A stretch of DNA of 57,126 bases from Thermoproteota archaeon (GTDB lineage Archaea; Korarchaeota; Korarchaeia; Korarchaeales; Korarchaeaceae). The number at the start of each line of letters is the position of its first letter. The stretch's first letter is position 1. The stretch lies in NCBI GenBank assembly GCA_027492205.1, contig JAOZFN010000002.1, positions 45,834 to 102,959 of the forward strand, given 5' to 3'. The notes below the pieces were generated by a model. That model did not search any database. It worked only from the letters and a program-made list of their open reading frames with translations, and had not been told where the DNA came from. Below are positions 1,944-49,555 of this stretch, one piece after another. The translations under genes and the position numbers were made by a program.

Positions 1944-2067
1944 CAGAGTGGCGTGGAGATGTAACATAATAGAAGGAAAGTTTCATGAAAGTATTGGAAA
2001 TGTATTAAAGCGCAGAATTTAAATTCGATTATTTAACTAATACTATAGCAGGCGAGAAGCCTGCGGG
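1944..2067 (+). promoter_or_regulatory. shared upstream module, copy 1
   Basis: About 120 bp of AT-rich DNA directly upstream of the signal-peptide gene at 2076. It is almost identical to 6527-6651 and its core recurs inverted at 17487-17540. The core contains GTATTAAAGCGCAGAATTT followed by AAATTCGATTATTTAAC, so the TTTAAA segment is a probable TATA element. The last part (GAAGCCTGCGGG) lies just before the start codon. Conservation of non-coding DNA before non-identical genes suggests common regulation, or a duplicated 5' cassette end. Confidence 0.6.
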
Positions 2068-2075
2068 GTGGAGAT

Positions 2076-2858
2076 ATGGATAAGAGAAGGTGTTTGGCAG
2101 TTTTGGGGATTTTAGGTCTCCTCTCTCCCCTGGTTACAGCCTCTATTATTGCCCAAACCTCAACGCAACCCCTAGACCGTCAAGAGAATCCTCTTAACTT
2201 GGCAGGAATGCTTGATCCATCCGTCGGTCCAGGGGAGGGACAACCACGTATTGGAGTGAGGGGTTCAAAACCAGGGTGTACATAGTTCCGGACTACAACG
2301 TCCCAGACCCAGAAGCGCACTATTATTGGATAGGGTCTCACCTAGCCAATGGATACTGGATCCAAGTCGGCTACCTCACGGCACACGAGCGGCCAAGAGG
2401 TGCGTGGTTTTACTGCTACCTTCCCCCAGCTGGGGGCGATTATGTCGTAAGAAAGGGCCCCGACGGATCAGCAGGCCCCGCCTACACCTACATGTACTAC
2501 TCGGCAATTCACGTGGGCGACGGATACTGGTCGTTTGTCAAGGGGGGGCGATGAGTACTTGGGCACTGAGTTCTTTGACGTGGATTCCACGGGATATCAC
2601 GCACCTGCTTCAATAGCTGAGAAGGGTGGGGAGTACGGGGGTTGGCTTAAGCCCGTTTACTTTAACCCGGCCATCTCGTACAAACCCAGGGGGTCCTCTT
2701 ACTTCAGGCAGGCCGAGCAGGGCTACGCCCACAGGGAGCCCACGGATAACTGCAACCAGAACTACGACATTGTAAGGCTTGGATTTAATTACATCCAAGC
2801 GGGACAGTATACGAATCCCACATGTGATTATGGCGACGGGGAAAAGATTTGGGGGTGA
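2076..2858 (+). pseudogene. family A secreted protein, two frameshifts
   Basis: ATG 2076 starts a clear signal peptide (MDKRRCLAVLGILGLLSPLV). The frame then breaks twice. Near 2234 one extra G in the GGGG run would join the leader to GGTTTYWSEGFKTRVYIV. At 2542-2548 a run of seven G would have to be six to join YWSFVKGG to DEYLGTEFFDVDSTGYH. The corrected product is about 260 residues with YWIQVGYLTAHE and AWFYCYLP, resembling the WIQxG module of the genes at 4360, 16751 and 19176. Codon use is AT-richer than in neighbours. The stop overlaps the next start (TGATG). It is either decayed, or intact and mis-sequenced. Confidence 0.6.
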
Positions 2859-3475
2859 TGCTCATGGGGCGGTCTAGCCTCCTACTGTTGACCGCGGCCT
2901 CCATCTCCCTCTTGGCCTTAGGTCTCTGGATCCAGTACCCATTCGGCTCCGCCAGCCCGGAGGCCACGAAGGCGCCTCCCACCATCCCGCCGGAGGACAT
3001 ACCCGAGACCCCCATATCCCTGCTGACGACCGGCGTCGAGGGATTCCCCAGCGTGGTGAGGCAGGGCGAGGCGGTCTCCTTCGTCGTCAAGGTCTACTGC
3101 TTCAAGCCGGAGTGCGACTTCAGGCCCGAGATAACGCTAACGCGGCTCAGGGACCTCCCCCCTCCTGAGGAGCTGACCCCAGGCAAGTTCCCCGGACCCC
3201 TGGAGGTGAACCTCTCCGCCGCGGAGTCGGTAGAGGGCGAGGCACTCGAGCTGGTCGCCGGGGAGGGGGACTCCACGATCACGCTGGCGATTCGGCCCTC
3301 CCCGGGGTTCACCCTGAGGGAAGGAGAGGTGAAAGTCCTCAACGCCACGCTGGAGGTGGGCCAAGCAGTCGCCCCAGGCCGCTACAGGATAAACGTGATA
3401 ATGAGGGGCGCCCTCTCGAAGCCGGGCACGCTGATCGAGACGTACGACTTCGAGGTGGTCCCGGGCCGAGGGTAG
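2858..3475 (+). CDS. secreted or membrane-anchored Ig-like protein
   Basis: Start ATG 2858 overlaps the stop of the upstream gene (TGATG), suggesting translational coupling. Residues about 5-27 are hydrophobic (SSLLLLTAASISLLALGLW), a signal peptide or N-terminal anchor. A Pro-rich linker (APPTIPPEDIPETP) precedes a single domain of about 150 residues that ends APGRYRINVIMRG and ETYDFEVVPGRG. This layout suggests an extracellular beta-sandwich domain of the type found in archaeal surface proteins. It has one Cys pair (CFKPEC). Short remnants of similar tails occur at 8329-8376 and 23587-23745. The function is unknown. Confidence 0.7.
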   Translation: MLMGRSSLLLLTAASISLLALGLWIQYPFGSASPEATKAPPTIPPEDIPETPISLLTTGVEGFPSVVRQGEAVSFVVKVYCFKPECDFRPEITLTRLRDLPPPEELTPGKFPGPLEVNLSAAESVEGEALELVAGEGDSTITLAIRPSPGFTLREGEVKVLNATLEVGQAVAPGRYRINVIMRGALSKPGTLIETYDFEVVPGRG

Positions 3476-3544
3476 CGGCCTCCAACCCTCCCCCATTTTT
3501 GAGGGGAGAGTGCGCCTGAGAGCACCGATCTAATGGCACAGGAA

Positions 3545-3666
3545 CTCAGGGGGCCTTCGAGACCCCCTACTACCACGACTGGGTTGCTGAGGGTGAGGTG
3601 GTCTGGCTGGGCAACTACGACGAGGGGGGCGACGGCTGGGCCACGAGGGTAAGGTATGATGGTTAA
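3545..3666 (+). pseudogene. 3' fragment of a family E gene
   Basis: The translation ends AFETPYYHDWVAEGEVVWLG then NYDEGGDGWATRVRYDG and a stop. It matches the C-termini of the Trp-rich genes at 6663 and 12138. No upstream part of the gene is present, so this is a truncated copy. It preserves the family's presumed original C-terminus (NYDEGG.GWA...DG), which shows that the longer tail of the 6663 gene comes from frameshifts. Confidence 0.6.
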
Positions 3667-3681
3667 CTCGCAAACCCTTCT

Positions 3682-3705
3682 CTCAACTTTTGGTTTTTCT
3701 TTAGG
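3682..3705 (+). terminator. possible T-rich terminator
   Basis: Three T runs (TTTT, TTTTT, TTT) directly after the family E fragment match the oligo-T pattern of archaeal intrinsic termination. The same place after the intact copy (7645-7651) also has a T run. Confidence 0.35.
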
Positions 3706-3720
3706 ATTCTATATAAAGAA

Positions 3721-3731
3721 GTTATTAATCT
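3721..3731 (+). promoter_or_regulatory. TATA box of the leaderless family C gene at 3751
   Basis: GTTATTAATC is centred about 26 nt before GTG 3751, the spacing expected for a leaderless archaeal transcript. A similar TTATT element sits about 27 nt before the GTG of three other family C copies (7721, 11369, 12052). Confidence 0.5.
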
Positions 3732-3750
3732 AACCTGATTAGCCATCAGC

Positions 3751-4224
3751 GTGCCCTGGAGGGAAACCACGGTCTTCTTCTACCTCTGGCTCGCCCTTCT
3801 CCTGTTCCTGTCGCTGAGGGTGCTGGCGATCGAGTCTGGCCTGGCGCACTATCCGTACCTCAACCCGCTCGAGGTGACTTATCAGCTTACGGTGATCCTG
3901 TTCCTCCCTCCCGCGGTCGCGGCCCTGGCGTCCCTCTCCCTCCCAGTTAGGGGCGAGCCCCTAGCGGCCTTCCTCCTGGGGTTCTCGACGTACGCGCTCT
4001 CTCCAGCGCCGGGAGCCCCGCTCGCTCCTGCGCTCTGTCTCGCCCGACGCTGCACCCTAGGGGGGTGGCTGTACGCCGCCCTCGCTCTGGCCCTGAACCT
4101 GCTCTGGGGCCTAGGCTGCGCGCTCCTGGCCAGGTCAGAGGACCCCAGGGATGTCGGAGCCGCCGTGGGATTCTTCCTCTTGTTCGGCGGGTGGCTGGTC
4201 TCCTTCACGTTCCTGCCCAGCTGA
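3751..4224 (+). CDS. family C membrane protein
   Basis: 157 residues with four to five hydrophobic segments and almost no soluble loops. The family signature is an N-terminal PWRETTVFFYLWLALLLF, a central LPPAVAALASLSLPVRGEPL and a C-terminal ALNLLWGLGCALLARSEDP. Paralogs are at 7721-8113, 10909-11369 and 11552-12052, with remnants at 8117 and 13265. The start is GTG 3751 with a TATA box 26 nt upstream. No catalytic motif is visible. The function is unknown; repeated proximity to secreted families A, B and E suggests a common envelope role. Confidence 0.65.
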   Translation: MPWRETTVFFYLWLALLLFLSLRVLAIESGLAHYPYLNPLEVTYQLTVILFLPPAVAALASLSLPVRGEPLAAFLLGFSTYALSPAPGAPLAPALCLARRCTLGGWLYAALALALNLLWGLGCALLARSEDPRDVGAAVGFFLLFGGWLVSFTFLPS

Positions 4225-4359
4225 GTCCTCTTCTCGCTAAGAGAACCAGAACCTCTATTCTCTACTATCTCGTCCATCTAGAGCGCGCAAGTGTAAGGGT
4301 TAAAGGAAAAATTGGAAAGACATAGATAATAGATGATCGCGAGCTTTAGACAAAGTTAG

Positions 4360-5037
4360 GTGGTATGCCTAGTTTATTTGCTTACTCTTAGCTTCAGCGG
4401 TATTGTCCTGGAGGTATATTCCACTCCCTCATGGTATTACGGATCTAACTGCGAACTTACTACCTGCATCGATAGAATCGACAGACAGGGCGTATCTGGC
4501 TATATCTATATCTATACCTACAGTCCGTCGGGGATCTACTGTTCGAGTTACGATAAAACGGCTAGGTACCTACTAATTCAGAACGGCGGGTGGATACAAG
4601 CTGGCTGGGGTAAGGGATACTCGCCCGCTGGTTGCTTAACAGAGCCCACATTTTATGCGGAACATAGGAGAGGGACAACTTACGGGTACTACGTTCTAGG
4701 AGCAGCTTCTTCAGGGTTTCATCACATCCGGATATGGTTTGACCAAGCTATAAATAAATGGAAGATAATCATCGATGGTGTTACTAAGCTCAGATTACCC
4801 GCCGGTTCTGGGCCAAATTATGAGAAAGGTTTTGCGCGTGGCGTATCTGAGATATCTTGCGACTCTAACTGCGGATGTAGGATAAATGCTTACAGCCACT
4901 TCAAACTTTTACATTATTTCAGCATACCCAACTGCGGAGGTTGGTGCCTTTGGGATGTGCTATCAAAGCATGAGAGCGGCACGTGCTTCTACGTTCAGAA
5001 AGTAACGAACTATGAATTTTACGTCAAGAGAGGTTGA
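4360..5037 (+). CDS. family A secreted protein (WIQAG domain)
   Basis: 225-residue secreted protein, intact. Residues 1-21 form a signal peptide (VYLLTLSFSGIVLEV). The mature part is rich in Tyr, Cys, Gly and Trp, with GGWIQAGWGKGYSP, IRIWFDQAINKWKIIIDG and a C-terminal NYEFYVKRG. The same landmarks occur in the copies at 16751 and 19176. The WIQ.G and KW...DG motifs suggest a beta-sandwich, lectin-like fold, but this is inference. The eight or more Cys residues suggest disulfides outside the cell. The gene is distinctly AT-richer than its neighbours (many TTA, ATA and TAT codons), hinting at foreign origin. The family B gene follows after 6 nt. GTG 4360 follows an AGGTG-like ribosome site. 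Confidence 0.7.
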   Translation: MVCLVYLLTLSFSGIVLEVYSTPSWYYGSNCELTTCIDRIDRQGVSGYIYIYTYSPSGIYCSSYDKTARYLLIQNGGWIQAGWGKGYSPAGCLTEPTFYAEHRRGTTYGYYVLGAASSGFHHIRIWFDQAINKWKIIIDGVTKLRLPAGSGPNYEKGFARGVSEISCDSNCGCRINAYSHFKLLHYFSIPNCGGWCLWDVLSKHESGTCFYVQKVTNYEFYVKRG

Positions 5038-5043
5038 TGCGGC

Positions 5044-6358
5044 ATGGCTGATGGTCGCAGGTTACTCTTAATCGCACTTGCGTTCTCTCTAATCGCGCTG
5101 GCTTGCCTGCTTCACGGTGCGCGCCAGAGTTCGGAGATCGGCAGGAGGCCGTCTCCGACGTCATCAGCTCCTAAGTCCACGACCCAACCCTCTGAATCCT
5201 CGGAGTCACAGCCGTCCAATGACTCCGAGAAAGAGCCTCCCTGGCTTCAGCTAAACGACTCGGCTCTGGAGGCCCTCGGAAAGTCCTGCCCAGAGGCCCC
5301 CTGGGTACCCCCGCTGGAGACGGGCTTCATCCTGCCAGCCAACGAGGCGATGCCTGCCCTGGCGGATCTGGGAGTCAGGCTCCCATCCTACTCAGGAGGG
5401 ATGAGGCTCGTTGGGATCCTAGTGATAGGGGCGGGAAACCACAGCCAAGCGGCGAATCAGCTGAGAGTGGCGGAGAAGCAGGGAGTTCCCGAAGTGTTCG
5501 CGGGGGTCTACGCGTTCCCAGGTAGGAACGTGACCCTCGCGATCCCCTACGTCACCTACGCGATGAGTGGTCCAGAGATGGTTCTGAGGGCGGGCAGGGG
5601 CAAGATGAACCTGGAGCAGGGCTACGACGGCACGATCAGGGGCTGCCCCTACCGGATCACGCCCTTCCTAGGCAGGATCACGTGCACGACGACCGCGTCC
5701 CTCTACTTCGGGGTCCCAGATCTGGAGCCGGGACACGCAGAGATCCAGGTGGGAGACCTATACTACACGGTGGAGGCCTACCTCCCGGAGGGGGGAGCTG
5801 TACAGGGTGATCGAGTCCATCGTCCCCCCCGAGGGCTGCCCCGAGTCGACCCTGAGGCCGGAGGTCTACAGAGTTCAGGGGTACCTCGTCTCGCTGGAGG
5901 AGGCCATGGAGGCGCTGGAGAGGGAGCTGGATAGGCACAGTGCGGCGGGCGAGCCAGTGCCGGAGGGCGCTGGCCTGGTGCTCCCGACGTACGTGCCGGA
6001 TGGGCTGAGGCTCGAGGCGGCGATGGTGAGGGAGATAGGGGCGGGGGAGTGGGCCGTCAGGGAGGTAATCCTGGCCTACGCGGACCACCCGTGCGCGGTG
6101 TACAACGTCCCGGCACCCTGGGTTCCCGACGCCCAGAACCTGACGATCTGGGTGGAGGCTCTGTCTGAGGGCGGGCTAGTCCCTCCGGAGTCTGCAGACG
6201 AGATCGTGATCGACGGTGTGACGGTATACGTGTGGCCCAGGGTCGAGTACTACCCAGCCAGGGTGGAGTTTTGGTTCAAGGGGCTCGCCTACACGATCCA
6301 GGGGTACTACCCGCTAGACGAGGTCCTGAGGGTGGCCGAGTCGATAATAGGTGGGTAG
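5044..6358 (+). pseudogene. family B secreted protein, single-base frameshift
   Basis: Two abutting frames together match the intact family B gene at 8380. Frame 1 (from 5044) has an N-terminal hydrophobic segment (LLLIALAFSLIALACLL), a Ser/Pro/Thr linker and a first domain ending GDLYYTVEAYLPEG. Frame 2 supplies a second domain (LPTYVPDGLRLEAAMV to LAYTIQGYYPLDEVLRVAES). Removing one G from the run of six at 5790-5795 joins them as YLPEGELYRVIESI. Each domain resembles DUF4367 (LP.YLPEG at the start; Y.IQGYYPL.E.L..A.S at the end). It lies 6 nt after a family A gene. It is either a pseudogene, or intact with a base-call error or slippage. Confidence 0.65.
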
Positions 6359-6460
6359 CGAGGGCCCTCGGAGCCGACGGGGGTTCATTTCGTTGACTTG
6401 CTTTCCGATGGACCCTAAGGAATTTTTTTAGATAGATGGAGAACAGGGAATTAAGCTCTT
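6341..6460. repeat. conserved downstream region of family B genes, copy 1
   Basis: The end of the family B gene and about 100 bp after it (ATAATAGGTGGGTAGCG, then GATGGAGAAC and GGGAATTAAG) recur at 9541-9659 after the other family B copy. The similarity extends past the stop, so the duplication unit included the 3' flank. Confidence 0.5.
6422..6430 (+). terminator. possible oligo-T terminator
   Basis: ATTTTTTTA lies about 65 nt after the family B stop codon, consistent with archaeal T-tract termination. No hairpin is evident. Confidence 0.35.
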
Positions 6461-6526
6461 ACCGACCTTGATTTTGTTATCGCCACCCGCGCGCTCCGCG
6501 GTCGCGGGGGGCCACTCTCCCTACGC

Positions 6527-6651
6527 CAGAGTGGCGTGGAGATGTAACATAATAGAAGAAAAGTTTTCATAAAAGTGTTGGAAATGTATTAAAGCGCAGA
6601 ATTTAAATTCGATTATTTAACTAATATTGTAGCGGTCGAAAAGCCTGCGGG
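6527..6651 (+). promoter_or_regulatory. shared upstream module, copy 2
   Basis: Near-identical to 1944-2067: CAGAGTGGCGTGGAGATGT, the AT-rich centre with AATTTAAATTCGATTATTT, and AAGCCTGCGGG. Differences are scattered single bases. The downstream gene here is a different family (E, not A), so the module is shared independently of the coding sequence. Confidence 0.6.
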
Positions 6652-6662
6652 AAGGTGGGTGC

Positions 6663-7652
6663 ATGCCGAGTATGCATCTCCCACCGGGCCGGGGCATGGC
6701 CCTGGGGGTCCTGCTCCTGTGCCTCACCCTGACCGCGGCCGCCTACCCAGCCATATCTGCGGCCCATCCGGCCCAGGGCGTTGGTCCCTACGACGAGTGG
6801 CTGAGGGAGCACAGGGTGACGGCGGAGGCGAGGCTCGTCCTCACCTACGACGGTAGGCTTCTCCGCTACAGGAAGGTCCTCGAGGGCCCAGGGCCTCTCC
6901 ACAAGCTCGGAGTGGAGAGGCTGGTCGGCGAGGAGGTGGCCGTAGAGGTCGCGGAGGGAGAGCTGGAGGAGATAGCAACTAGCCTGGGGCTGAGCGCGGA
7001 GGAGGCGAGCAGGCTCAAGTCGGGAGGGACAGTCGAGGTCTTGAGCGTCCCGTACGCTGGCACGTGCATGCCAGACGACGTCCCCCCGACTTGGTGGGAC
7101 CAGTACCCGTACCCGAAGTACAGCTGGGAGAGGTTCGAGACGGGGAGCGGGTGGGTCTACTACTGCACCGCAGACCCAATGAACCTGGTGTGGTACCGAG
7201 GGGACGGACAGGACTTCACGTGGCTGAGCCCGATCATATGGGAGCTCGCCCACGACGGCTGGACTCCCACGTGGCCTGAGGCCACAAACTACGTCTGCGA
7301 GCCCGTCTACGGCTGGGAGGCGCGGCAGGACGGTTGGGGCAGTCCCCACCCCGCGAGCGACTACGACCGCTACCACGTGAGGCTCTGGAGGGTCCACAAG
7401 TGGGGGTACGGCGGGGTCGATGTCATAGGGCAGGCCCACGTGGACAAGCGGGTTTGGTGGTGGCATGAGGCGATTCTGTTTGAGGAGGCTGAAGAAGTGG
7501 TCTCAAAGGCCTTCAAGTATCCTACTTACGGCTACTGGAGCTGGGTGGTTGAGGGGGAGGTCGTCTGGCTGGGCAACTACGACGAGGGGGCGACGCTGGG
7601 CCACCAGGATAAGGTACGAGGGATAACTCGCAAACTCTCTCTCCTTTTTTAG
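6663..7652 (+). CDS. family E Trp-rich secreted protein, altered C-terminus
   Basis: 329 residues with a signal peptide (MALGVLLLCLTLTAAAYPA). A charged helical region (residues about 40-130) precedes a Trp/Tyr-rich domain with ADPMNLVWYRG, LAHDGWTPTWPEA, YDRYHVRLWRV and WWWHEAILFEEAEE. The DPxNL, GW and RxHxRLW elements resemble the LssY C-terminal domain, a tentative assignment. Relative to the copies ending at 3666 and 12138, two single-base losses after NYDEG (near 7590 and 7596) replace GGDGWA..DG with ATLGHQDKVRG and a 20-residue tail. The ATG sits at nearly the same distance from the upstream module as in the 2076 gene. Probably extracellular. Confidence 0.65.
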   Translation: MPSMHLPPGRGMALGVLLLCLTLTAAAYPAISAAHPAQGVGPYDEWLREHRVTAEARLVLTYDGRLLRYRKVLEGPGPLHKLGVERLVGEEVAVEVAEGELEEIATSLGLSAEEASRLKSGGTVEVLSVPYAGTCMPDDVPPTWWDQYPYPKYSWERFETGSGWVYYCTADPMNLVWYRGDGQDFTWLSPIIWELAHDGWTPTWPEATNYVCEPVYGWEARQDGWGSPHPASDYDRYHVRLWRVHKWGYGGVDVIGQAHVDKRVWWWHEAILFEEAEEVVSKAFKYPTYGYWSWVVEGEVVWLGNYDEGATLGHQDKVRGITRKLSLLF

Positions 7653-7720
7653 TGGATGAAATCGGGCTTCTCTGGTTCTCTGGAAAGAGACTTATTGCTT
7701 TGGTCCGCCCAGCCATTAAC

Positions 7721-8113
7721 GTGCCCTGGAGGGACGAGCCGGGGTTCTTCTACACCTGGCTGGCGCTCATAGCCCTCCTCGCGCTGGGCGTCACGGGCGT
7801 AGACCCCATCCTCCGGGATCTGTCCTACGTCTTGACGATCCTCTACGTCCCCCCGGCGGTCTCGGCCGTGGCTTGCCTCACAGGGCCAATCAGGAGGAGG
7901 CCAGCCCTCGCCCTCCTCCTGGGTCTCCTCACCTACCTCTTCGCCCCCTTCGGGGTGATCCGCTGGGGCCTCGTGGGGCTCGCCCTGAGCCTCCCCTTCG
8001 CCCTCGGGTCAGCGCTCGTTGCTAGGTCCGAGAGGCCCTGGGACCTGAGCGCGCTCCTAGGCTACTCTCTGCTCCTCCTCGCGTGGCGGGTGCCCTTCCT
8101 CATGGTGGACTGA
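7721..8113 (+). CDS. family C membrane protein
   Basis: 130 residues and almost entirely hydrophobic. It shares PWRDEPGFFYTWLALIALL, LYVPPAVSAVACLTGPIRR and ALGSALVARSERPWDL with the other family C copies. I chose GTG 7721 because the homologous start is used in the paralogs and ACTTATTGC lies about 27 nt upstream, giving a leaderless transcript. It follows the family E gene, the same order as the E fragment and C gene at 3545-4224, so an E-C pair was duplicated as a unit. The function is unknown. Confidence 0.6.
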   Translation: MPWRDEPGFFYTWLALIALLALGVTGVDPILRDLSYVLTILYVPPAVSAVACLTGPIRRRPALALLLGLLTYLFAPFGVIRWGLVGLALSLPFALGSALVARSERPWDLSALLGYSLLLLAWRVPFLMVD

Positions 8114-8116
8114 GAG

Positions 8117-8227
8117 CCGCTGCAGGCCCCCCACAACCTCGTGATGCTCGCCGCCTCCGCCGGGCTGGAGGCGCTGGCGCTGGCCGTGAGCCTGACCCTT
8201 CCAATGGTTAGCGCTCTTCGAGGGTGA
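8117..8227 (+). pseudogene. family C remnant
   Basis: The short frame LQAPHNLVMLAASAGLEALAL matches PYNIVMLAVSSIWGLGCALL of the family C gene at 11552, with no N-terminal half. It shows that another family C copy once lay here. Confidence 0.35.
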
Positions 8228-8328
8228 CATCCCGACCGGCAGCCGCGTGCAGGTACGGTGAGACCCCAGATCGGCGCGAAGGCGCGGTCGGCGGCCCTGG
8301 CTGACTTTTTTAGCCTCGGATCGAGACG

Positions 8329-8376
8329 TCTCAGATCGAGGCGTACGAGTTCGAAGCGATCCTGGGTCAGGGGTGA
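8329..8376 (+). pseudogene. remnant tail of an Ig-like secreted protein
   Basis: The final residues SQIEAYEFEAILGQG and a stop match the end of the protein at 2858-3475 (LIETYDFEVVPGRG). Only this tail survives. It lies 3 nt before the next gene, mirroring how the Ig-like gene sits within the duplicated clusters. Confidence 0.35.
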
Positions 8377-8379
8377 GGG

Positions 8380-9558
8380 TTGAGAGGAAAGAGCCAACTC
8401 TTGCTCGCGGCGCTCCTAGTCGGGCTGGCACTCCTCGGAGTGCGGTGGGCTCAGCGCGAGGAGCCAGAGCCGTCGATCCCCTCGTGGAGCCCGCCGCCCT
8501 TCTGGCCTGAGCTGAACGCCAGCGAGCTCGCGAGGGTCGGAGGGGCCTGCCAGATCTGGGGCGCCCCTCCGGAGCAGTGCGGCTACGCCCTCGCGCCGGC
8601 CGACGTCGCGCTGGGGGTTCTGGCGCCTGCTGGCTACCGGGTACCGAAAGAGGGCCCGGGAGGCTTGAGGCTCCTGGGCGCCGCTGTGCTCTGCGCCAGA
8701 TCCCCAGAGGAAGCTGTGCGGGCTCTTGAGATGGCCAGGGATCGCGAGGATGTCATGCACACGATCTACTTCGAGTACACGATCGGCGGAAGGCCCGTCT
8801 CTGAGCACGTCTCGGCGAGCCCCCTCAGGGGAGGGCCGGACGCCGTGGTAGGGGTCTACAGGGGCTCCATGCACCCGGAGCAGGGCTACGACGGCACGAT
8901 CAGGGGCTGCCCCTACGCGGTGGTTAGGCGGTTCACGGGAGAGGTCGGCTGCGGGTACTCCGGCGAGGTCGCCGACCTCCTCCCGGCCGTGGCCCAGGTC
9001 CAGGTTGGCGACCTGGTCTACACCGTTCGGGCCTACCTGCCGGACGACCTGCTGGCGGAGTTCCTGGACCTCCTGGTGCCCGAGGAGGGATGCACAATCG
9101 AGGTCTTCAGGCCGGAGGTGATGGAGGTCTCGGGCGAGCCCATGGGGCCAGACGAGATCCCGAAGGTCATGGGAGAGAGCGTCAGGCTGCCCGCGTACCT
9201 GCCGGAGGGCCTCACGCTGAGGGGGGTGCTCGTGGAGTCTCTCGGCGGGAAGGAGAGGAGGACGATCCTGATAGTCTACGCGGACCACCCCTGCAGGTTC
9301 TACAACTTGCCGGCCCCCTGGCTGCCGGACGCTCCGAACCTGACGATCTGGATTGACAGGCTCCCGGAGGGACACGCCGCATTTCCGGCGAGCGTGAGAG
9401 AGATCGCACTGGGCAACGTGACCGTCTACGTCTGGCCTGAGGTACCCCTGAACCCGACCAGGGTCGAATTCTGGGTGGGCGACCTGTTCTACTCGGTGCA
9501 GGGGTACTACCCGCTCGAGGAGATCCTAAGGGTGGCCGCTTCGATAATAGGTGGGTAG
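8380..9558 (+). CDS. family B secreted protein, two DUF4367-like domains
   Basis: 392 residues, the intact reference copy of family B. An N-terminal hydrophobic anchor or signal (LLLAALLVGLALLGVRWA) is followed by two related domains. Domain 1 ends VGDLVYTVRAYLPDDLLAEF; domain 2 runs from LPAYLPEGLTLRGVLVE to VGDLFYSVQGYYPLEEILRV. The LP.YLPEG start and Y.V.GYYPLEEIL.VA.S end resemble DUF4367, found in secreted or anti-sigma-like proteins, by pattern only. A segment EQGYDGTIRGCPY is strictly conserved in the 5044 copy. The start is TTG 8380 after GGGTGAGGG. No enzyme motif is visible. Confidence 0.7.
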   Translation: MRGKSQLLLAALLVGLALLGVRWAQREEPEPSIPSWSPPPFWPELNASELARVGGACQIWGAPPEQCGYALAPADVALGVLAPAGYRVPKEGPGGLRLLGAAVLCARSPEEAVRALEMARDREDVMHTIYFEYTIGGRPVSEHVSASPLRGGPDAVVGVYRGSMHPEQGYDGTIRGCPYAVVRRFTGEVGCGYSGEVADLLPAVAQVQVGDLVYTVRAYLPDDLLAEFLDLLVPEEGCTIEVFRPEVMEVSGEPMGPDEIPKVMGESVRLPAYLPEGLTLRGVLVESLGGKERRTILIVYADHPCRFYNLPAPWLPDAPNLTIWIDRLPEGHAAFPASVREIALGNVTVYVWPEVPLNPTRVEFWVGDLFYSVQGYYPLEEILRVAASIIGG

Positions 9559-9659
9559 CGGGGGCCCTGGAGCCGGCAGGGAGTTGCCTTGTTCGACTCA
9601 CTCTCCAGCACCCTAGGTCGATGGAGAACGGAGGGATGTGATCGGGGAATTAAGAACTT
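9541..9659. repeat. conserved downstream region of family B genes, copy 2
   Basis: Matches 6341-6460 across the stop codon and into the non-coding flank. Here the 5' end of the membrane-protein gene at 9638 lies within the repeat (GATGGAGAAC, then GGGAATTAAG). Confidence 0.5.
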
Positions 9660-10396: not shown

Positions 10397-10639
10397 CCCG
10401 TGGCCAGGCTAGGCTGAGCCTCCTCATGGACCGCGACTGGGGGCTCTACCGTCGCGAGCAGCATCGCCGACTCGGGACTTCTTCGCGCGCCGCATGGCTG
10501 GTCCCTATACCCATCACCTAACTTCTGACTTCCATAGCAACATCAGAAGTCGGCGGGCTGCTACGAGAGATGCTGGATATCCTGCTCTTGGCGTCCAGGA
10601 GGAGACAGTCTCTTGCCCCTCCTGGCTGGGGTGCGTGCC
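10397..10639. other. no gene; short duplicated remnant
   Basis: No credible gene. The only notable feature is GCATGGCTGGTCCCTATACC near 10492, which matches the family D-like gene around 9780 and encodes AAWLVPIPI, so it is a scrap of another copy. Confidence 0.4.
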
Positions 10640-10790: not shown

Positions 10791-10908
10791 TCCCAAGCTG
10801 ATCTACCTTCTGAGGCGCCTGGGCGATAAAAAAATCGTGGCGGTTCCGATACCTGGGGAGATCCTGGACTCGTGGGGCCCTCGCCATCCACGTACCAGAA
10901 TTAGGATT

Positions 10909-13542: not shown

Positions 13543-13563
13543 ACTTGATAGTCAAAGTATCAA

Positions 13564-15393: not shown

Positions 15394-15548
15394 CTCGTCA
15401 CCACTCCAAGGCATAAAAAAAGCGTGGGGGGCTGGAGGTCAACGCTTGAGGTAATAAGACGGGTCTAGGGCTTCTAAACATCAGAAAAAGGTTAGGCGAG
15501 GGGGGCTCAGGCCGTTCGTCGTACCCTAATGGTGGCTCAGCAGCTCGC

Positions 15549-16754: not shown

Positions 16755-17433
16755 CCCCTCACGACGTAAAACTCCCAATTAGCTATTTTGTTGACTTTGT
16801 AGTAGTCAGAGCCGTCTACCGGATAGAAGGCGTCCCACCAGCCTCCGTACTCACCCTCGTAGTACCACAGGTCGTAGAAGTGGCCGCTCATGTCAGGATA
16901 GACCGCATTAGCGCTGGATTCAGAGTAAGAAAGGGCTTTTCCATTATCGTCATCCATGGCAACTCCGCTTGGCAAAGTGTGGACTAGGGAGCCGTCGAGG
17001 TAGAATTCCCATCTTCTCTCGTCTATATCAAAGGCGAGGGCAAATCTGTGAGATGTCGTGGATACCTCCCCTATAACAATGCAATTGTACGCACGACTCT
17101 CGTTTACCTTCACATAGTCTATGTAGGCCGTTGGAGAGTTTAAGTATCCGCATACTGGGTTATACCCCTTCCCCCATCCGAAGCCTATGAATCCAGAGCC
17201 ATCCTTTATGCCAAAGTAGCGCGCCGTGAACTCTCCAGAGGGGACGTAGGGGTTAGAAACTGATATATACCCGTTTACGCCTGTTCTGTGAAGCCGACTG
17301 GTGCAGAGGCTTGTAGCACAGTTTTTCCCACCAACATCAATCGGAGGACCAACAGCCGCAGATATGATAAAAATACCTGTTAAAGTTATAAGTAGTGTTG
17401 AAATAGGATCAATAACATCTTCTTGTAGGACAT
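16751..17433 (-). pseudogene. family A secreted protein, frameshift in the signal peptide
   Basis: A strong ribosome site GGAGGTGAT precedes ATG 17433 (SYKKMLLILF), but the frame stops after 15 codons. One extra T in the TTT run near 17386 restores STLLITLTGIFIISAAVGPP and then an uninterrupted mature domain to the stop at 16751. That domain has GFIGFGWGKGYNP, RFALAFDIDERRWEFYLDG and the C-terminal NWEFYVVRG shared with the 4360 gene. The coding sequence is AT-rich. With the correction the protein is about 227 residues, the normal family size. Confidence 0.6.
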
Positions 17434-17486
17434 TTTTATCACCTCCATAGCATCTCCGCCTTGGCTACAATAATCACGAAATGTTC

Positions 17487-17540
17487 CGCTTTTAAATTCT
17501 GCGCTTTAACACTTTTCTAATACTTTTATGAAACTTTTTT
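17487..17540 (-). promoter_or_regulatory. shared upstream module, copy 3 (inverted, core only)
   Basis: Read on the minus strand: AAAGTTTCATAAAAGTATTA, GTGTTAAAGCGCAGAATTTAAA. This matches the core of copies 1 and 2. It lies about 55-105 bp upstream of the family A gene starting at 17433, oriented toward it. The flanks (CAGAGTGGCGTGG and GAAGCCTGCGGG) of the other copies are absent, which limits the conserved core to about 55 bp. Confidence 0.55.
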
Positions 17541-17654
17541 TGGGAAGAACGATTTAGCCAGCGAGTATGATGAGAAAAGCATTACAAGCAGGGTATTTAG
17601 GATGCCTAGTTGGAAGGAGGGGGATCCTGGGAGGGGCTGCGGAGGGTTCGGGCC

Positions 17655-17789
17655 TCAGCTGGGGTATCCAGTCAAGGCTAGAACGAGGCCAAGCGTGAAG
17701 AGAAGGGAGAGCCCTGCAGAAAAACTAGTAGCTCCCGGCAGAGAGACCTGCCCCATCGGTGGTCTCGGGGGTAACCTCTCCACTTCCAC
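17655..17789 (-). CDS. possible small membrane-anchored peptide
   Basis: A 44-codon frame begins with GTG immediately after the MNT stop codon. It ends ATSFSAGLSLLFTLGLVLAL and TGYPS, a single hydrophobic helix. The placement right behind the nucleotidyltransferase could indicate coupling, but it may equally be the C-terminal anchor remnant of a lost surface protein. I see no homology to judge by. Confidence 0.25.
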   Translation of the reverse strand: MEVERLPPRPPMGQVSLPGATSFSAGLSLLFTLGLVLALTGYPS

Positions 17790-18107
17790 TTACACCCTGA
17801 TCAGCCTCCCCCTCCTAGCATACAGCTTCAGCATCCTAGGCGGCTGAATGTGGACCTCGAAGGGATCCCCCACGCCCGCGAGCCACAGCTCCTTGAGCAG
17901 CTCTGCGGGCTCGGCGGTGGTAACCACGAGCACATCTATGTCGCTTGACAGCGTGTGGGTCCCCTCGGCGACGGACCCGAACAGGTACATCTCGGCCCCT
18001 GGGTCGATCCTCCTGACTACCTCTTTAATCAGATCGAGATACTTCCGCAGGTTTCTGAATACCTCCCGCCTCCTCCTGGCCTCCTCGATCAGCAGGTCAC
18101 GAGACAA
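17790..18107 (-). CDS. MNT-type nucleotidyltransferase (antitoxin-like)
   Basis: 105 residues. The nucleotidyltransferase signature is YLFGSVAEGTHTLSSDIDVL (residues about 41-60), with the GS motif and the paired Asp of DID, followed by FEVHIQPP. MNT proteins of this kind pair with HEPN ribonucleases; in characterised systems MNT neutralises HEPN by adenylylation. The gene overlaps the end of the HEPN gene by 11 bp, the usual order here being HEPN then MNT. The start ATG is clear. Confidence 0.8.
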   Translation of the reverse strand: MSRDLLIEEARRRREVFRNLRKYLDLIKEVVRRIDPGAEMYLFGSVAEGTHTLSSDIDVLVVTTAEPAELLKELWLAGVGDPFEVHIQPPRMLKLYARRGRLIRV

Positions 18108-18463
18108 CCCTCATCACCTCCTCGACCACGGCCATCAGCCTCTCGGCGTCCTCCCTCCTGAACTCTCTGGGAACGTACCTGGAGGTTATGTAGGCATCCT
18201 CAAGCGCGCCGAGTTCCAGCATGAACCTCCTCAGGACCCCTCGCGCGGCCTCGGCGGAGTCTGGCGACGCCTCTGCCAGCATCTCCAGCAGCCTCCTAAG
18301 GCTGTGGGTTCTCGGGTAGTCCACCCCGCTCTCAAGGAGCCTCGCCTTGAGGAACATCTGCAGGGACTGCTCCAGGCTGAACACGGCCAGCCCGTAGAAT
18401 CCCCTGTCCAGCTGGAGCCGGGCCGTCTCCAGGAACTCCCTCGACCTCTTCCCTCTTCGACAT
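18097..18463 (-). pseudogene. HEPN-domain protein, frameshift near the N-terminus
   Basis: From about 18437 the frame reads EFLETARLQLDRGFYGLAVF, EQSLQMFLKARLLESGVDYP, RTHSLRRLLEML and a C-terminal helix, a typical HEPN four-helix domain. The only good start, ATG 18463 (MSKREEVE), is in another frame and joins if one base is dropped from CCC at 18438-18440 (GGG to GG). The family's catalytic Rx4-6H motif is not obvious; the AEASP...RYVPREF region is where it would lie. It is either a single-base error or an inactivated toxin beside an intact MNT. Confidence 0.65.
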
Positions 18464-18599
18464 CCCGAGTCATCTACCCCCGGGGTCCCCTGATCCCACC
18501 TACGATCGGTCGAATTCAGCTTCCACGGACGGCATTCTGGGCCTGAGCGGACCCCCGCGTTTCTTTATGCCCACAATAATTATTTTCGCGCGAATCTGT

Positions 18600-18891
18600 C
18601 CCGGCCGCGTCGCTGGAGGCGGCCCTCGTCATGAGGTCCGCCGGGCTCGACGACTCAAGCATTGCGAGGGCCCTGGGCGCCACGCAGACAGTCATCTCCA
18701 TGTTCGCCAGGGTGGAGTCCCCGGCGTTAAGCCTCTCCCACGCCGCCCTGGCCGCCGAGCTGAGGGATAGGTACGGCCTGGGATTCTTTGACTCCGTCCA
18801 CGCGGCCGTGGCGCTGGCCGGGAGGCTGGTCTATGTGGGCTCAGGACGAGAGCGTGAGGAGAGCCATCGAATCGCGCGCGAGGCGGGGTAG
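18600..18891 (+). pseudogene. remnant of a PIN-domain toxin gene
   Basis: The segment AALAAELRDRYGLGFFDSVHAAVALA has the late PIN motif (yGL.FFDs.HaA.A) of VapC toxins. The N-terminal Asp motif and the final lvS.D strand are missing or scrambled (LVYVGSGRERE). AT-rich DNA at 18560-18590 could be the old promoter. Confidence 0.4.
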
Positions 18892-18928
18892 ATCAGACCT
18901 GCCCGCGGCCCGCCACCCTCAGCCGTCG

Positions 18929-19072
18929 TCCGGCGAGTGGGTCCCCCCGCCGGAGCCCATACCGGGGGAGCGGCTCTCACTCCGGGAGGCCCTCGACAGG
19001 GCCCAGTTTGAACTGCTCGCGCCCAGCGTGATACCGCCCGACCTTGAGCTGGCGGGCGTCTGGTACTCCTCT
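18929..19072 (+). repeat. partial duplication of the 19850 gene, copy 1
   Basis: About 144 bp nearly identical to 19988-20131. It encodes GEWVPPPEPIPGERLSLREA and ends at WYSS. The first 100 bp match perfectly by eye; differences are confined to the GTGATACCGCCCGACC stretch. The copy lacks a start and is cut off on both sides, so it is a recent truncated duplicate. Confidence 0.75.
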
Positions 19073-19142
19073 TCAACCCGTCGTTCGTTGCAAGCTGGTG
19101 GGATGATCTGGGAGTTAGATGCTACCCGCGCACAGAACGCAA

Positions 19143-19152
19143 ACATTTATAA
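19143..19152 (+). promoter_or_regulatory. TATA box of the family A gene at 19176
   Basis: CATTTATAAC is centred about 27 nt before ATG 19176, fitting a leaderless transcript. This supports ATG 19176 over any upstream in-frame start. Confidence 0.55.
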
Positions 19153-19175
19153 CACTATTACAGCCTTTACTCGCA

Positions 19176-19853
19176 ATGGAGTCACTTGCACCACGTAATC
19201 CTTCAATCATCGTCGCTTTTTTGGTCCTGATCACTCTTGTCGCCGCGCTCCCGTTTCTCGTATCGCAGAGTAGTGGCTCTGCTGGCACATACCATGTTTG
19301 GGTGAAGCAATGGGGGAACGTATATGGAGTCAGAGGGTACAGCAAAGTTACCAATGACGATGTCCTTCCGCCGGGCTCCGGAGGAGTTGCTTCGGTATTC
19401 TGCCTGATGATGACAAATTATGGTTGGGTTCAAGTAGGATTTACGAAGGGAGACACCTTGCGGGAAGGTTATTGTTCTACTCCCTGCTTCTACGTTGAAT
19501 CTCGAACAATCTGCGGGGATTATTATGCCATCCTTGGACCAGCTGAGGTAGGCTCTACTCACGAGTATAGAATATTTGCAGTATATCCCTATCACCGGTG
19601 GCATGTGACTCTCGATGGTAGATTGATATTTAGTGAGAGTTGCATACCATCCTACGATGGTTATGCCAAAGTATTTTCCGAGAGCAAGGACTCTCTAAAT
19701 AGAATAAACTACCATCATTACTGGGGCCTGATGTATGCAAAAAACCTGTACTTGACATGGGTGTACTTTGACGATACCTCAAGCGGCGCCGATTATCCAT
19801 ACCATATTCTGAAGATTAGCGACAGAGAGTTTTACGCGTATGGTGGAGGGTGA
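19176..19853 (+). CDS. family A secreted protein
   Basis: 225 residues from the leaderless ATG 19176. The signal peptide includes SIIVAFLVLITLVAALPFLV. Family landmarks: NYGWVQVGFTKGDT, EYRIFAVYPYHRWHVTLDG and the end ISDREFYAYGGG. Six Cys residues suggest disulfides, consistent with export. The gene is AT-richer than its surroundings. Its stop overlaps the start of the following B-like gene (GTGA). Fold and ligand are unknown; a lectin-like beta-sandwich is a guess from the alternating aromatic pattern. Confidence 0.7.
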   Translation: MESLAPRNPSIIVAFLVLITLVAALPFLVSQSSGSAGTYHVWVKQWGNVYGVRGYSKVTNDDVLPPGSGGVASVFCLMMTNYGWVQVGFTKGDTLREGYCSTPCFYVESRTICGDYYAILGPAEVGSTHEYRIFAVYPYHRWHVTLDGRLIFSESCIPSYDGYAKVFSESKDSLNRINYHHYWGLMYAKNLYLTWVYFDDTSSGADYPYHILKISDREFYAYGGG

Positions 19854-20671
19854 CAGGAGTGAGGCCCCTTACGTTGGCCGTCTGCCTCCTCCTCGCCTTT
19901 GCTGTCGCTGGATTGGGCGTGTTCTCGACATATAAAAGCCATGGGCGGTATGAATCAAACCAATCGGCGGCTCCTCAGCCTCACGTCTCCGGCGAGTGGG
20001 TCCCCCCGCCGGAGCCCATACCGGGGGAGCGGCTCTCACTCCGGGAGGCCCTCGACAGGGCCCAGTTTGAACTGCTCGCGCCCAGCGTGACCCCGCCGGG
20101 CCTTGAGCTGGCGGGCGTCTGGTACTCCTCTGAGGACGGGCGGGTTACGGTACACCTCGTCTACGCCCCTGGTGGGATAGAAGAGGGTGGGATCATCAGT
20201 GTACCCGAGGTGATCCTGTCCGGTGGGATGGTCATAATAGAGATTCATCACCCAGATCTCCCGCCGGAGGCGTCTGAGTCGCTGATGGAGGGATTCAGGA
20301 GGCGAGCTCAGAACCCTCCCAAGGATCCGCTGGAGCTGCTGGCCAAGAGGAATCCGGCAGCTCCTTTGGATCAGGTAGTGAACTTTACCGTGACCAATGA
20401 GCCTGGAGCGACCACCTACAGGTACCGGTTCAGGGATGGGACCTGGGCCGTCTTGACCGTCCCGGACGCCCAGGACCTCCTCCTGGAGGTGGGCGGCAGG
20501 CCTGTTTACGCTCACCTCATGAGGGGGGAGAGCCCTAGCCACCCGCACTTCTGGCACCAGGTCACGTTCTTCTCGGATGACTGGAAGACCCAGTACCTCG
20601 TGCTGGCCAGCCCCAAGATCCCGGCGGGAGTCGTGATGGATGTGGTCAGGTCCATGCTCTCTGGGGGGTAG
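19850..20671 (+). CDS. family B-related secreted protein
   Basis: 273 residues from GTG 19850, overlapping the family A stop. A signal or anchor (LTLAVCLLLAFAVAGLGVF) is followed by FELLAPSVTPPGLELAGVWY, GRVTVHLVYAPGG and a C-terminal SDDWKTQYLVLASPKIPAGV. This matches the general DUF4367-like scheme of family B (P.gLeLagV; Y.....i....v....rSml.GG) with one domain rather than two. Part of its 5' region is duplicated at 18929. It occupies the B position of an A-B operon. Confidence 0.6.
   Translation: MTGVRPLTLAVCLLLAFAVAGLGVFSTYKSHGRYESNQSAAPQPHVSGEWVPPPEPIPGERLSLREALDRAQFELLAPSVTPPGLELAGVWYSSEDGRVTVHLVYAPGGIEEGGIISVPEVILSGGMVIIEIHHPDLPPEASESLMEGFRRRAQNPPKDPLELLAKRNPAAPLDQVVNFTVTNEPGATTYRYRFRDGTWAVLTVPDAQDLLLEVGGRPVYAHLMRGESPSHPHFWHQVTFFSDDWKTQYLVLASPKIPAGVVMDVVRSMLSGG
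19988..20131 (+). repeat. partial duplication, copy 2 (within the 19850 gene)
   Basis: Source or sister of the 144-bp repeat at 18929-19072. The offset is 1,059 bp, so the intervening family A gene lies between the two copies. Confidence 0.75.
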
Positions 20672-21154: not shown

Positions 21155-21571
21155 TTGTTCGTGGTGGACGCCTCGGTCTTCTCGAGCCTGATGATAAAGG
21201 ACGAGTTCTTCGAGAGGGCCGAGTCCTTCCTGGTCTCTCATGACAGGTCGGAGCTCGTCACGGTGGACCTGGCCTTCGTGGAGACCGCAAACGCCCTCTG
21301 GAGGCATGTTCACGTGCTCAAGAGGATACCCGAAGAGAGCTACAGGAGGCTCAGGACCCTCGTGGTGCCCCTGATCGAGAGCAGCGTGGGAGAGGTGGTG
21401 GAGGTGAGGAGACTCATACCGGAGGCCCTGGACAACGCCTACAGGTATGGAATCACGGTCTATGACTCGGCCTACGTCACTCTTGCCCTCAGGAGGGGTT
21501 TCAAGCTGATCAGCTTCGACGCGAAGTTGAGGGATGCGCTGAGGGAAATCGACATGGTGATATCCCCCTGA
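21155..21571 (+). CDS. vapC: VapC toxin (PIN-domain ribonuclease)
   Basis: 138 residues. PIN landmarks: FVVDASVF (first catalytic Asp), DLAFVETANALWRH (Glu), YGITVYDSAYVTLAL (Asp) and KLISFDAKLRDA (last Asp). All four acidic positions are present, so it should be an active Mg-dependent endoribonuclease controlled by the upstream VapB. The start is TTG 21155, directly after the vapB stop. It is intact, unlike several TA relatives in the window. Confidence 0.9.
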   Translation: MFVVDASVFSSLMIKDEFFERAESFLVSHDRSELVTVDLAFVETANALWRHVHVLKRIPEESYRRLRTLVVPLIESSVGEVVEVRRLIPEALDNAYRYGITVYDSAYVTLALRRGFKLISFDAKLRDALREIDMVISP

Positions 21572-21692
21572 CCTCTCACGCGGGGGGCCACGGAACTTCG
21601 CGCGGCCGCGCGCTCGCGCGTGCTCAGGGCGTGCGCGTTGCGATCTGGGGGACATATCCAGGTGGAACCTCCCACTCTATACGATCCCACCA

Positions 21693-21931
21693 ATGGAGTG
21701 CGAGGTCAGGCTCGAGAGGGGGGCCGGATCCTGATCCCGGCCAGGGTCAGGAGGCTCCTCGGGCTGAGAGAGGGGTCCATATTGATCCCCAAAGTGGCGG
21801 GAGACTCCCTGATATTGAGCGTGTGTGACGATCTAATTCTAGCGGCTCAGATGAGGAGAATCGGCATAGAGGAGGTTCTGTCGAACGACGGCGACTCCGA
21901 CCTGATACCGTGGGTCAGGAGGGACTTCTAA
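21693..21931 (+). pseudogene. AbrB/SpoVT-type antitoxin, frameshifted
   Basis: ATG 21693 starts MECEVRLERG; the next frame continues GRILIPARVRRLLGLREGS, the AbrB swapped-hairpin motif, to a stop at 21931. The join lies in a run of six G at 21718-21723; seven (or four) would keep the frame. The C-terminal part (LILAAQMRRIGIEEVLSNDG) is intact. No PIN partner follows, so it is an orphan antitoxin. Confidence 0.5.
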
Positions 21932-22040: not shown

Positions 22041-23051
22041 TCACCGCCTCCTCATAAGCAGGAAGCTCAATACCGCCAGCGCGGCGACCACGAAGGCCAG
22101 CGAGAGGTTTCGGTAAAGCTGTTCTCCCGCGCTTCCCTCGGTCCGCGCCAACTTAACCTCCACGAGCCTCAGCCCGAACTCCTTCGAGCCTGGCTTGGGC
22201 GCGGAGCGGATTACCACGATGCCGAGCCTCTGACGCAGGTAGTCGTCGGCGTACCCGCTGGGGGCCTCGAGGAACGCTCCGGTCTCGGAGTCGTAAAGTA
22301 CGAGCAGCGGGACAGCCATCACCCGGCCGGGCTCGTAGAGAGAGAGATTGGCGACCCCAATCACGACCTCAGAGGACTCCAACCCGTCTCTCCTAAGCGG
22401 GCTCTTGAGCTCCAACCTGCTAAGGTTCCAGACAACCTCCGTGCCGTCGGTCCAGTTGAAGATAGCCACCCCCGTGACCCACCCAGACCGGGGAACCCCC
22501 TCAGGATCTATCCAGAGTAGGAACCTCCCCCAGGGCTCCCCGCTCTCGTCCACAATCACACCGCGCGACGGGTCCAGGAGGATCTCCTCCTCACGTCCCA
22601 GCTGAAATAGTCCACGGAGTAGAACGGTTTTCCCCCTCGCGCTCACGGAATCCAAGGATAGGATCTCGACCCTCCTAACGAAGGAGAAGTCTCGGCTCTC
22701 CGCCAGCTCCGCCGCCTCCCTCCCCTCATAGAGGACGGCGGTGGCGTTCACACTGAACCACACCCTCAGCCTGGCGAGCTCCCCATCAAACCCGATTAGC
22801 TCCCACCCATAGACTCCCTCGACGCTGCCGCCCTCCTCCTCCCTCCCAACGGCCGCCGACAGCTTCTCTGCGTCAGTCTCTATGACTCCGCCGTCGTCTA
22901 AGAGGATTGTGGTGGTTTCCCGAGCTCCCCCAAACGCTATGACTGCCCTCTCTACAGGCAGGTATCTTTCATCGGGCGGCAGGCTTACCGTCAGGGCCGA
23001 CCCTGCCAGTGCTACCAGCGCAAGAACTCCGGCAGCTCGGGCTATATTCAC
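22041..23051 (-). CDS. family H membrane-anchored exported protein
   Basis: 336 residues. A signal peptide (RAAGVLALVALAGSALTVSL) begins the protein and a C-terminal transmembrane helix with a basic tail (LAFVVAALAVLSFLLMRRR) ends it, so the bulk is extracellular and anchored. The body is beta-rich (LARLRVWFSVN; RFLLWIDPEGVPRSG; LLVLYDSETGAFLEAPSG). The same sequence of features occurs in the protein at 51653-52627. It starts at GTG 23051, 9 nt after the stop of the small secreted gene, so the two form an operon. The function is unknown. Confidence 0.7.
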   Translation of the reverse strand: MNIARAAGVLALVALAGSALTVSLPPDERYLPVERAVIAFGGARETTTILLDDGGVIETDAEKLSAAVGREEEGGSVEGVYGWELIGFDGELARLRVWFSVNATAVLYEGREAAELAESRDFSFVRRVEILSLDSVSARGKTVLLRGLFQLGREEEILLDPSRGVIVDESGEPWGRFLLWIDPEGVPRSGWVTGVAIFNWTDGTEVVWNLSRLELKSPLRRDGLESSEVVIGVANLSLYEPGRVMAVPLLVLYDSETGAFLEAPSGYADDYLRQRLGIVVIRSAPKPGSKEFGLRLVEVKLARTEGSAGEQLYRNLSLAFVVAALAVLSFLLMRRR

Positions 23052-23060
23052 GCCTCACCC

Positions 23061-23468
23061 TCACCCCCATATAGCAACGAAAGCGCGTGCGTCGTATGGT
23101 TTAACCTCTCCCCAGGGGAGGTACACGTCGGTCCAGGCCTCGGTCCAGCCGCCGAAGGATGAGTGATCGCCGGTATAGTAGCAAACTACGGTGGCATACT
23201 CGAAGCCTTCATTTCTTCCACATTCGGCCCAGTGCCGCCAGTTGAAGTATACCCCCCTAACCGGATCGTAATTCGCGGATACGCATGCGACAACCCAAGA
23301 GTAAGTACCTTCATCTCTCTTGCAGTTGACGACTGGTATGGACAGGGGCTCCACCTCACCTGACTCCCTTGAATCTGCCAAGGCCTGAGACACTATAGCG
23401 GTCGACAGCAGGAAGATGAGAACGACGAACTTGAGTTCGAGGTGTGGAGAGGTTCCTGGGAACCTCAC
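23061..23468 (-). CDS. family G small secreted protein
   Basis: 135 residues from GTG 23468, preceded by GGGGAAG and, about 36 nt upstream, a TTATAA element. The signal peptide is KFVVLIFLLSTAIVSQALA. The mature part has KRDEGTYSWVVACVSANYD, four to five Cys and a C-terminal YDARAFVAIWG. The gene at 51246 shares the DEG, AxVxxxSNxYD and YDAxA..... WG elements and also precedes a family H gene. It is therefore the first member of a duplicated two-gene cassette. Confidence 0.65.
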   Translation of the reverse strand: MRFPGTSPHLELKFVVLIFLLSTAIVSQALADSRESGEVEPLSIPVVNCKRDEGTYSWVVACVSANYDPVRGVYFNWRHWAECGRNEGFEYATVVCYYTGDHSSFGGWTEAWTDVYLPWGEVKPYDARAFVAIWG

Positions 23469-23469
23469 A

Positions 23470-23542
23470 TCTTCCCCAAATACAGACAAAGCTTTGTGCG
23501 TTATAAGCCTTTAGTTCTTCATTTTCTTGAAGAACGAGCGGG
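23470..23542 (-). pseudogene. C-terminal remnant of a family G gene
   Basis: The frame ENEELKAYNAQSFVCIWG matches the end of the intact family G protein (VKPYDARAFVAIWG). It lies just upstream of the intact gene, and its DNA now forms part of that gene's promoter region (TTATAA inside the AYN codons). This is evidence for tandem duplication of family G. Confidence 0.4.
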
Positions 23543-23586
23543 GACTCTCGCCCGTGGGGTGGGAGGGCGCCCCCTGATGGCCCTGG

Positions 23587-23745
23587 AGGAGGGGTGGTCC
23601 CTCGTCGTCGAGTTTGGGCTCCGCGTTCCCGAGAGAGCCACGCCAGGCCGGTGGAGTTCGAGGCGATCGTACCCAACGTGCAGGGCCACATCGGCTATTA
23701 CGCGTTCAGGGTGTCTCTAGAGTCAGGGCCACCGCGGAGGTCGTA
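23587..23745 (+). pseudogene. remnant of an Ig-like surface protein
   Basis: The reading LVVEFGLRVPERATPGR and, in another frame, VEFEAIVPNVQGHIGYYAF form the closing strands of an Ig-like domain like that of 2858-3475. Both ends and the reading frame are lost. Confidence 0.25.
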
Positions 23746-49553: not shown

Positions 49554-49555
49554 GG

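Follow-up and report, generated by a model that had tools for sequence, protein, structure and literature searches.

A lineage-specific archaeal island of coupled genes for exported proteins and putative membrane partners

Several described systems bear comparison with the locus analyzed here, a gene island at about 1944-20671 of a 57,126-nt stretch of DNA (the window; contig C12:45834-102959) from the 1.94-Mb draft genome of a vent archaeon. Neprosin (MEROPS G3, PF03080) is a secreted glutamic peptidase whose catalytic residues are E188 and E297 and whose E188Q mutant is inactive (PMC9343461). In the eqolisin SCP-B, Q53 and E136, with a spacing of 83, are placed as neprosin's pair (PMC6154417, PMC9343461). 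Eqolisins (MEROPS G1, PF01828) are known in some archaea. RseB/MucB and DUF4367 (PF14285) proteins are extracytoplasmic and membrane tethered, and lineage-specific surface or secreted multigene families are marked by tandem and inverted copies, remnants, chimeric genes and species-specific copy number. To our knowledge, secreted effectors with membrane partners are poorly known in archaea. The island has all the listed marks of the multigene families, but shows no sign of programmed switching or of one-copy-at-a-time expression. We tentatively read it, slightly short of an even chance, as a tandemly remodelled cluster of pairs in which the gene of an exported protein, A, A0 or E, is followed downstream by that of a membrane-anchored or membrane-embedded partner (B, the Ig-like protein or C), and for which a mechanism is proposed below. 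For comparison, 60 genomes of relatives were searched. The sole member of the same genus among them, Thermoproteota archaeon isolate Aegir_M25_B147 (JAOZFH010000063.1), belongs to a sister species with 93-95% nucleotide identity to this genome, and the species comparison rests on these two species with one genome each.

All-against-all protein comparison confirmed five recurring families, A, B, C, D and E, whose copies, some intact, some frameshifted and some reduced to tails, lie on both strands within 1944-20671, as had been claimed from the DNA alone. Family A comprises three homologous genes (A1/A2, E 2e-27; A1/A3, E 1e-9): A1 (4360-5037, +), A2 (16751-17392, -; the start is uncertain and probably slightly upstream) and A3 (19203-19853, +; real start uncertain). 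Another secreted protein gene, A0 (2076-2857, +), shows no significant BLAST or HHalign similarity to A1-A3 and is linked to them by an 11-residue match and the Q/E spacing alone. Family B has three full-length copies (B2/B3, E 2e-55; B1 C-terminal half/B2, E 3e-47), namely B1 (5044-6358, +), B2 (8380-9558, +) and B3 (15549-16754, -). The shorter, diverged B4 (19850-20671, +) is tied weakly to the others, with 19% identity and recovery by a profile that included B4, and a 5' fragment of it, 87% identical, lies at 18917-19084. There are four copies of C, of which C1 (3751-4224, +), C2 (7652-8113, +) and C3 (11552-12052, -) are accompanied by the disrupted C4 (10909-11475, -; split in the sister too), together with a remnant near 13293, and three of D: D1 (9638-10396, +), D2 (12666-13154, -) and D3 (14896-15414, -; 58% to D2). 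Family E consists of the intact E1 (6663-7652, +), an 82%-identical C-terminal copy, E2 (12138-12602, -), and a 39-residue tail (3553-3670, +; 67% over 39 residues to E2). An E remnant followed by a D gene also lies about 28 kb left of the window start in both species (L049:6600-7606 and L050:6750-7732), a conserved, older module outside the island. The original prediction had extended the recurrence to an Ig-like gene and to G and H; the Ig-like gene (2849-3475, +; N-terminal hydrophobic anchor) and G have no second copy in the window, and the second occurrence of H is merely a 15-residue tail at 23517-23473 (E 0.05). From 21808 rightward, the DNA forms a stable block that stays collinear in the sister, so the recombining part ends at about 20671.

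The island is lineage-specific, being known from this genome and one sister species alone. Among the 60 relatives, families A and B are present only in the sister, and no credible A homologue was found in a further 23 + 115 genomes of two other phyla, the search of the 115 having no positive control. A lone weak match in another phylum (genome G061) was rejected as an unrelated open reading frame (ORF) that on inspection resembles a CRISPR-ancillary (Csm6-type) gene. Sub-threshold matches aside, the proteins of families A-E match no Pfam, NCBIfam or PHROG profile.

The copies are arranged in coupled pairs. A1 and B1 are 6 bases apart, A2/B3 (through ATGA) and A3/B4 overlap by 4 bases, A0 and the Ig-like gene overlap, and C2 begins at the E1 stop codon. 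By pairwise identity, A and B copies branch alike, (A1,A2),A3 against (B1,B3),B4, and an E-C pair recurs at three to four sites, one of them elsewhere on the sister's chromosome. These junctions and the like branching of A and B indicate a plan in which an exported protein and its membrane partner are copied as a unit, with B2, which has no A gene directly in front, as an exception. The earlier view that modules rather than single genes were copied is thus borne out, and the A-B, E-C and A0-Ig orders are real and coupled. In addition, an element of about 60 bp, AAAGTTTCAT(A/G)AAAGTATT(A/G)GAAATGTATTAAAGCGCAGAA(T/C)TTAAA, precedes the non-homologous A0, A2 and E genes in both species. Its copies here lie 5' of A0 (1943-2067, +; 92-98% identical to 6526-6651), 5' of E1 (6526-6651, +) and 5' of A2 (17491-17539, -), and it also stands 5' of E at the other chromosomal site in the sister; six copies from the two species were aligned. 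The core, AAGCGCAGAATTTAAA, has three exact occurrences in the window against zero expected, and DNA searches of the whole genome returned no copy of the element outside the island. With a purine-rich stretch followed by a terminal TATA-like TTTAAA, the element may be a promoter plus operator.

Structural differences between the two genomes lie at repeats. The flanks and most of the island are collinear with the sister at 92-96%, and a stretch of about 8 kb (10757-18586) is collinear at 92%. The sister lacks a block at 6.4-9.3 kb that holds the element, E1, C2 and most of B2; the B1 and B2 repeats are spaced 3.2 kb apart, and the 3' end of the sister's B1 matches both, which fits recombination between B repeats, whether by loss or by gain. 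A3, also missing in the sister, sits here between 144-bp direct repeats that are 97% identical (18929-19072 and 19988-20131) and flank the insertion or deletion. At the place of C1, the sister has a C2-like gene and then a 3' remnant of C1, that is, a chimeric C gene. Contig C11 of the sister carries an E-C cassette with its own element, and the matching site here (contig C4:62817-67600; flanks 96%) has a PIN-type gene instead of a cassette; E1 and the C11 E are merely about 73% identical and are therefore paralogues. A0 (two single-base frameshifts) and B1 (a one-base frameshift at a G run) are disrupted here alone, two of the three changes falling in G runs, and the sister genes are intact (270 and 437 residues), whereas H and a PIN gene are frameshifted in the sister alone. 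In a draft genome, a sequencing cause or assembly error could explain such single-base differences, and since both genes are intact in the sister, the frameshifts of A0 and B1 say little for decay. The two genomes with the locus thus differ in copy number and order; neither an identical stable arrangement nor a match of the families to well-known unrelated proteins was found. In this genome pair, the gain, loss, chimerism and relocation of archaeal modules can be read directly.

Purifying selection has kept the intact copies. Compared between the species, most island genes have a ratio of nonsynonymous to synonymous substitution rates (dN/dS) of 0.12-0.51, against 0.07-0.19 for housekeeping genes, a range indicating looser constraint than on the latter; the ratio is 0.12-0.43 for A1, A2, B3, the C-terminal half of B1 and B4, and the value of 1.3 for D1 is based on very few changes. 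Guanine-cytosine content at third codon positions is 0.48-0.56 in the A genes (4360-5037, 16751-17392, 19176-19853 and 2076-2857), 0.76-0.86 in the intact B2, B3 and B4, and 0.87-0.94 in housekeeping genes. This difference in codon usage between A and B inside coupled pairs is long-lasting. A recent foreign origin of the AT-rich A genes was rejected, as A1 and A2 occur in both species and have co-diverged with their B partners. We also rejected a phage or plasmid island: there was no PHROG match, no viral-contig match for A, B or E, and no integrase recognized among the scanned island proteins. The tRNA-Lys gene at the left has its 5' side toward the island and is therefore not a usual 3'-end integration site.

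The predicted folds of A and B add new information. Export and membrane calls for island proteins were made by hydropathy, which bore out the expectation that nearly all products are exported or membrane proteins, and structures were predicted for two of them, A1 and B2. Family A proteins are exported and measure about 225 residues; each has a single hydrophobic segment at the N terminus, which in A1 is a signal or anchor segment before a putative beta-sandwich domain. The A1 model is all-beta, with two stacked sheets, and has a mean predicted local distance difference test (pLDDT) score of 54, with values of about 65-80 between residues 71 and 150. Of its 1056 PDB matches, the top four are neprosin entries (E 1.4e-3 to 5e-3), followed by alginate lyases, galectins and laminin-G domains; against viral structures, no match reached E 1e-3. 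A1, A3 and A0 share W-[IV]-Q-x-G, with a Glu at +84, +83 and +85, respectively (Q80 and E164 in A1; Q105 and E188 in the A3 ORF from 19119; WIQVG...E in A0). Four archaeal eqolisins have Q-x-G, preceded by I or L in three of them, with the Glu at +81 to +96. A possible likeness to eqolisins comprises [LIV]-Q-x-G and a Q-to-E spacing of about 83 in A1, A3 and A0, together with a modelled beta-sandwich; A has neither the WxGxxG-type nor the A(E/D)W(I/V)xE motif seen in the archaeal eqolisins. Neprosin provides the best solved fold matches and is likewise secreted, but A1-A3 have no recognizable pro-domain, and neprosin's pair of catalytic glutamates is not complete in A, where, if the motifs correspond, the E188 position is Gln or Gly. 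We infer a beta-sandwich for A, either of the glutamic-peptidase type (neprosin/eqolisin) or of a broader concanavalin-like type. The Q/E motif is suggestive only: it was spotted once the fold match was known, motifs this short turn up by chance, and the comparison of profiles gave no support. That A is a peptidase is a testable lead, at best evenly balanced, and membership of G1 or G3 is not claimed. The statement that the island holds no enzyme motif stands insofar as no Pfam or NCBIfam family was matched, but it may be wrong for A, whose model resembles glutamic peptidases. If A is a glutamic peptidase, a rare catalytic class would extend to proteins missed by sequence profiles, and the coupling of A to B would point to a way in which an archaeon regulates such an enzyme.

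Family B proteins, about 400 residues long, are anchored at the N terminus and carry two outer repeats that resemble each other. The B2 model matched MucB/RseB in Foldseek (E 6e-6), and weak DUF4367 matches (E 0.05-0.1, below cut-off) were obtained in two B proteins at two different repeats, the similarity lying at the end of each. B may therefore comprise two extracytoplasmic RseB/DUF4367-like domains on a membrane tether. It differs from the described proteins in falling below the Pfam cut-off, in its two repeats, in its coupling to a secreted protein, in the lack of sigma/anti-sigma genes and in being archaeal. The neprosin-like and MucB/RseB-like outcomes of structure prediction, a check proposed with the original prediction, both came at low model confidence or low template modeling (TM) score. 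C and D are small polytopic membrane proteins, and E1 has a signal segment, an N-terminal region of about 130 residues and a Trp/Tyr-rich C-terminal region.

Taken as a mechanism, one regulator acting at the shared element would switch on A0, A2 and E together. Once exported, A would be bound by B at the outer side of the membrane and kept inactive or at the cell surface until release; C and D would be membrane partners of E. Candidate targets are surface proteins of other cells, a nutrient protein or the cell's own surface. Variety would arise as repeats recombine or convert, adding or deleting whole pairs, rather than by programmed switching. A more specific proposal is a so far undescribed archaeal system that makes each secreted protein of glutamic-peptidase fold together with a membrane-tethered RseB-like partner restraining or positioning it, partly under one element, with pairs gained, lost and moved by repeat recombination; we regard it as rather unlikely. 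Several observations weigh against these readings. The A1 model is poor (mean pLDDT 54, TM about 0.4), no PDB match of it reaches E 1e-3, and the TM score of the B2 match is low (0.2). The A proteins match no PF01828 or PF03080 profile (maximum E 10). PF01828 has no match in this genome or the sister, though the profile does match in four other archaeal genomes; the PF03080 search matched nowhere and is uninformative on its own. HHalign of A against archaeal eqolisins was not significant (probability 0.6%), its best local alignment setting WIQAG on LIQTG. Catalysis is not general in family A, as A2 is conserved (dN/dS 0.19) although a Gly replaces the Gln of the putative dyad. Since neprosin E188Q is inactive, a Q-E pair in A would have to work as in eqolisins. 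A1 and A3 have no shared element, B2 has no A partner, and binding between A and B is suggested by gene coupling alone.

It is conceivable that A is instead a non-catalytic concanavalin-like binding protein, an adhesin or lectin displayed via B. The missing Gln of A2 and the alginate lyases, galectins and laminin-G domains that follow neprosin among the PDB matches would fit such a role; on the other hand, the neprosin entries together head the list, and Q and E are retained at the expected spacing in A1, A3 and A0. We consider this somewhat unlikely, and its probability overlaps with that of the remodelled pairs. A toxin/immunity (archaeocin-like) cluster, in which A and E would be antagonists and B, C and D would shield the producer, would account for the order of exported protein and then small membrane protein, for the patchy presence and for the repeated E-C pairing, including that at the sister's second chromosomal site. 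We nonetheless think it quite unlikely, no known defence or other profile having matched A, B, C, D or E in searches that did not include bacteriocin-specific libraries.

The locus had also been thought a possible surface-variation locus. That idea holds in that copy number and order differ between the two species, but not for phase or antigenic switching, as the locus is mostly collinear and its intact copies are under purifying selection, with no recombinase or invertible promoter seen. At a contingency locus, recombination and G-run slippage would make the exposed A, E and Ig-like proteins differ from cell to cell, as an escape from viruses or predators. Exported products, repeats, gene gain and loss and the chimeric C between species agree with this, as do the frameshifted A0 and B1, which are intact in the sister and have two of their three changes in G runs. 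However, the G runs are just 5-7 long, no invertase or silent-cassette arrangement was seen, about 8 kb is collinear at 92% in a comparison of two genomes, one per species, and assembly error could account for the single-base differences. We judge a contingency locus unlikely and favor remodelled exported/partner pairs over a switching antigen locus. The remnants and tails (the E tail, C4, the B4 fragment and the H tail) and relaxed dN/dS (0.2-0.5, with 1.3 for D1 at little divergence, against 0.07-0.19 in housekeeping genes) could alternatively mark largely neutral duplication and decay, an old gene-family graveyard with a few useful copies. The dN/dS of 0.12-0.43 for A1, A2, B3, the B1 C-terminal half and B4, and the preserved coupled order and promoter element, speak against this, and it seems to us as improbable as the toxin/immunity cluster.

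Unrelated genes, missed by the original prediction, are interspersed in the island. An AAA_14/DUF4143 ATPase gene lies mid-island at 13564-14775; it is 97% conserved in the sister (dN/dS 0.15) and matches PADLOC candidate PDC-S01 models. A HEPN/nucleotidyltransferase pair is found at 17790-18384, and a second pair, intact in the sister beside D1 (L025:10636-11369), is apparently degraded here (10540-10890). The PIN/AbrB-type toxin-antitoxin pair at 21155-21931 is intact here and split over several frames in the sister. Farther right, ABC transporter genes at 49047-52627 stand beside genes for two exported proteins, a small one (51219-51656) and a larger one whose C-terminal part is hydrophobic; no similarity to G or H was detected. 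The right end of the window carries archaeal rRNA and RNase P genes. At 31917-32012 lies a tRNA-like gene to which ARAGORN assigns a four-base anticodon (ccta); Rfam also scores a tRNA here, possibly one that is intron-bearing or misread.

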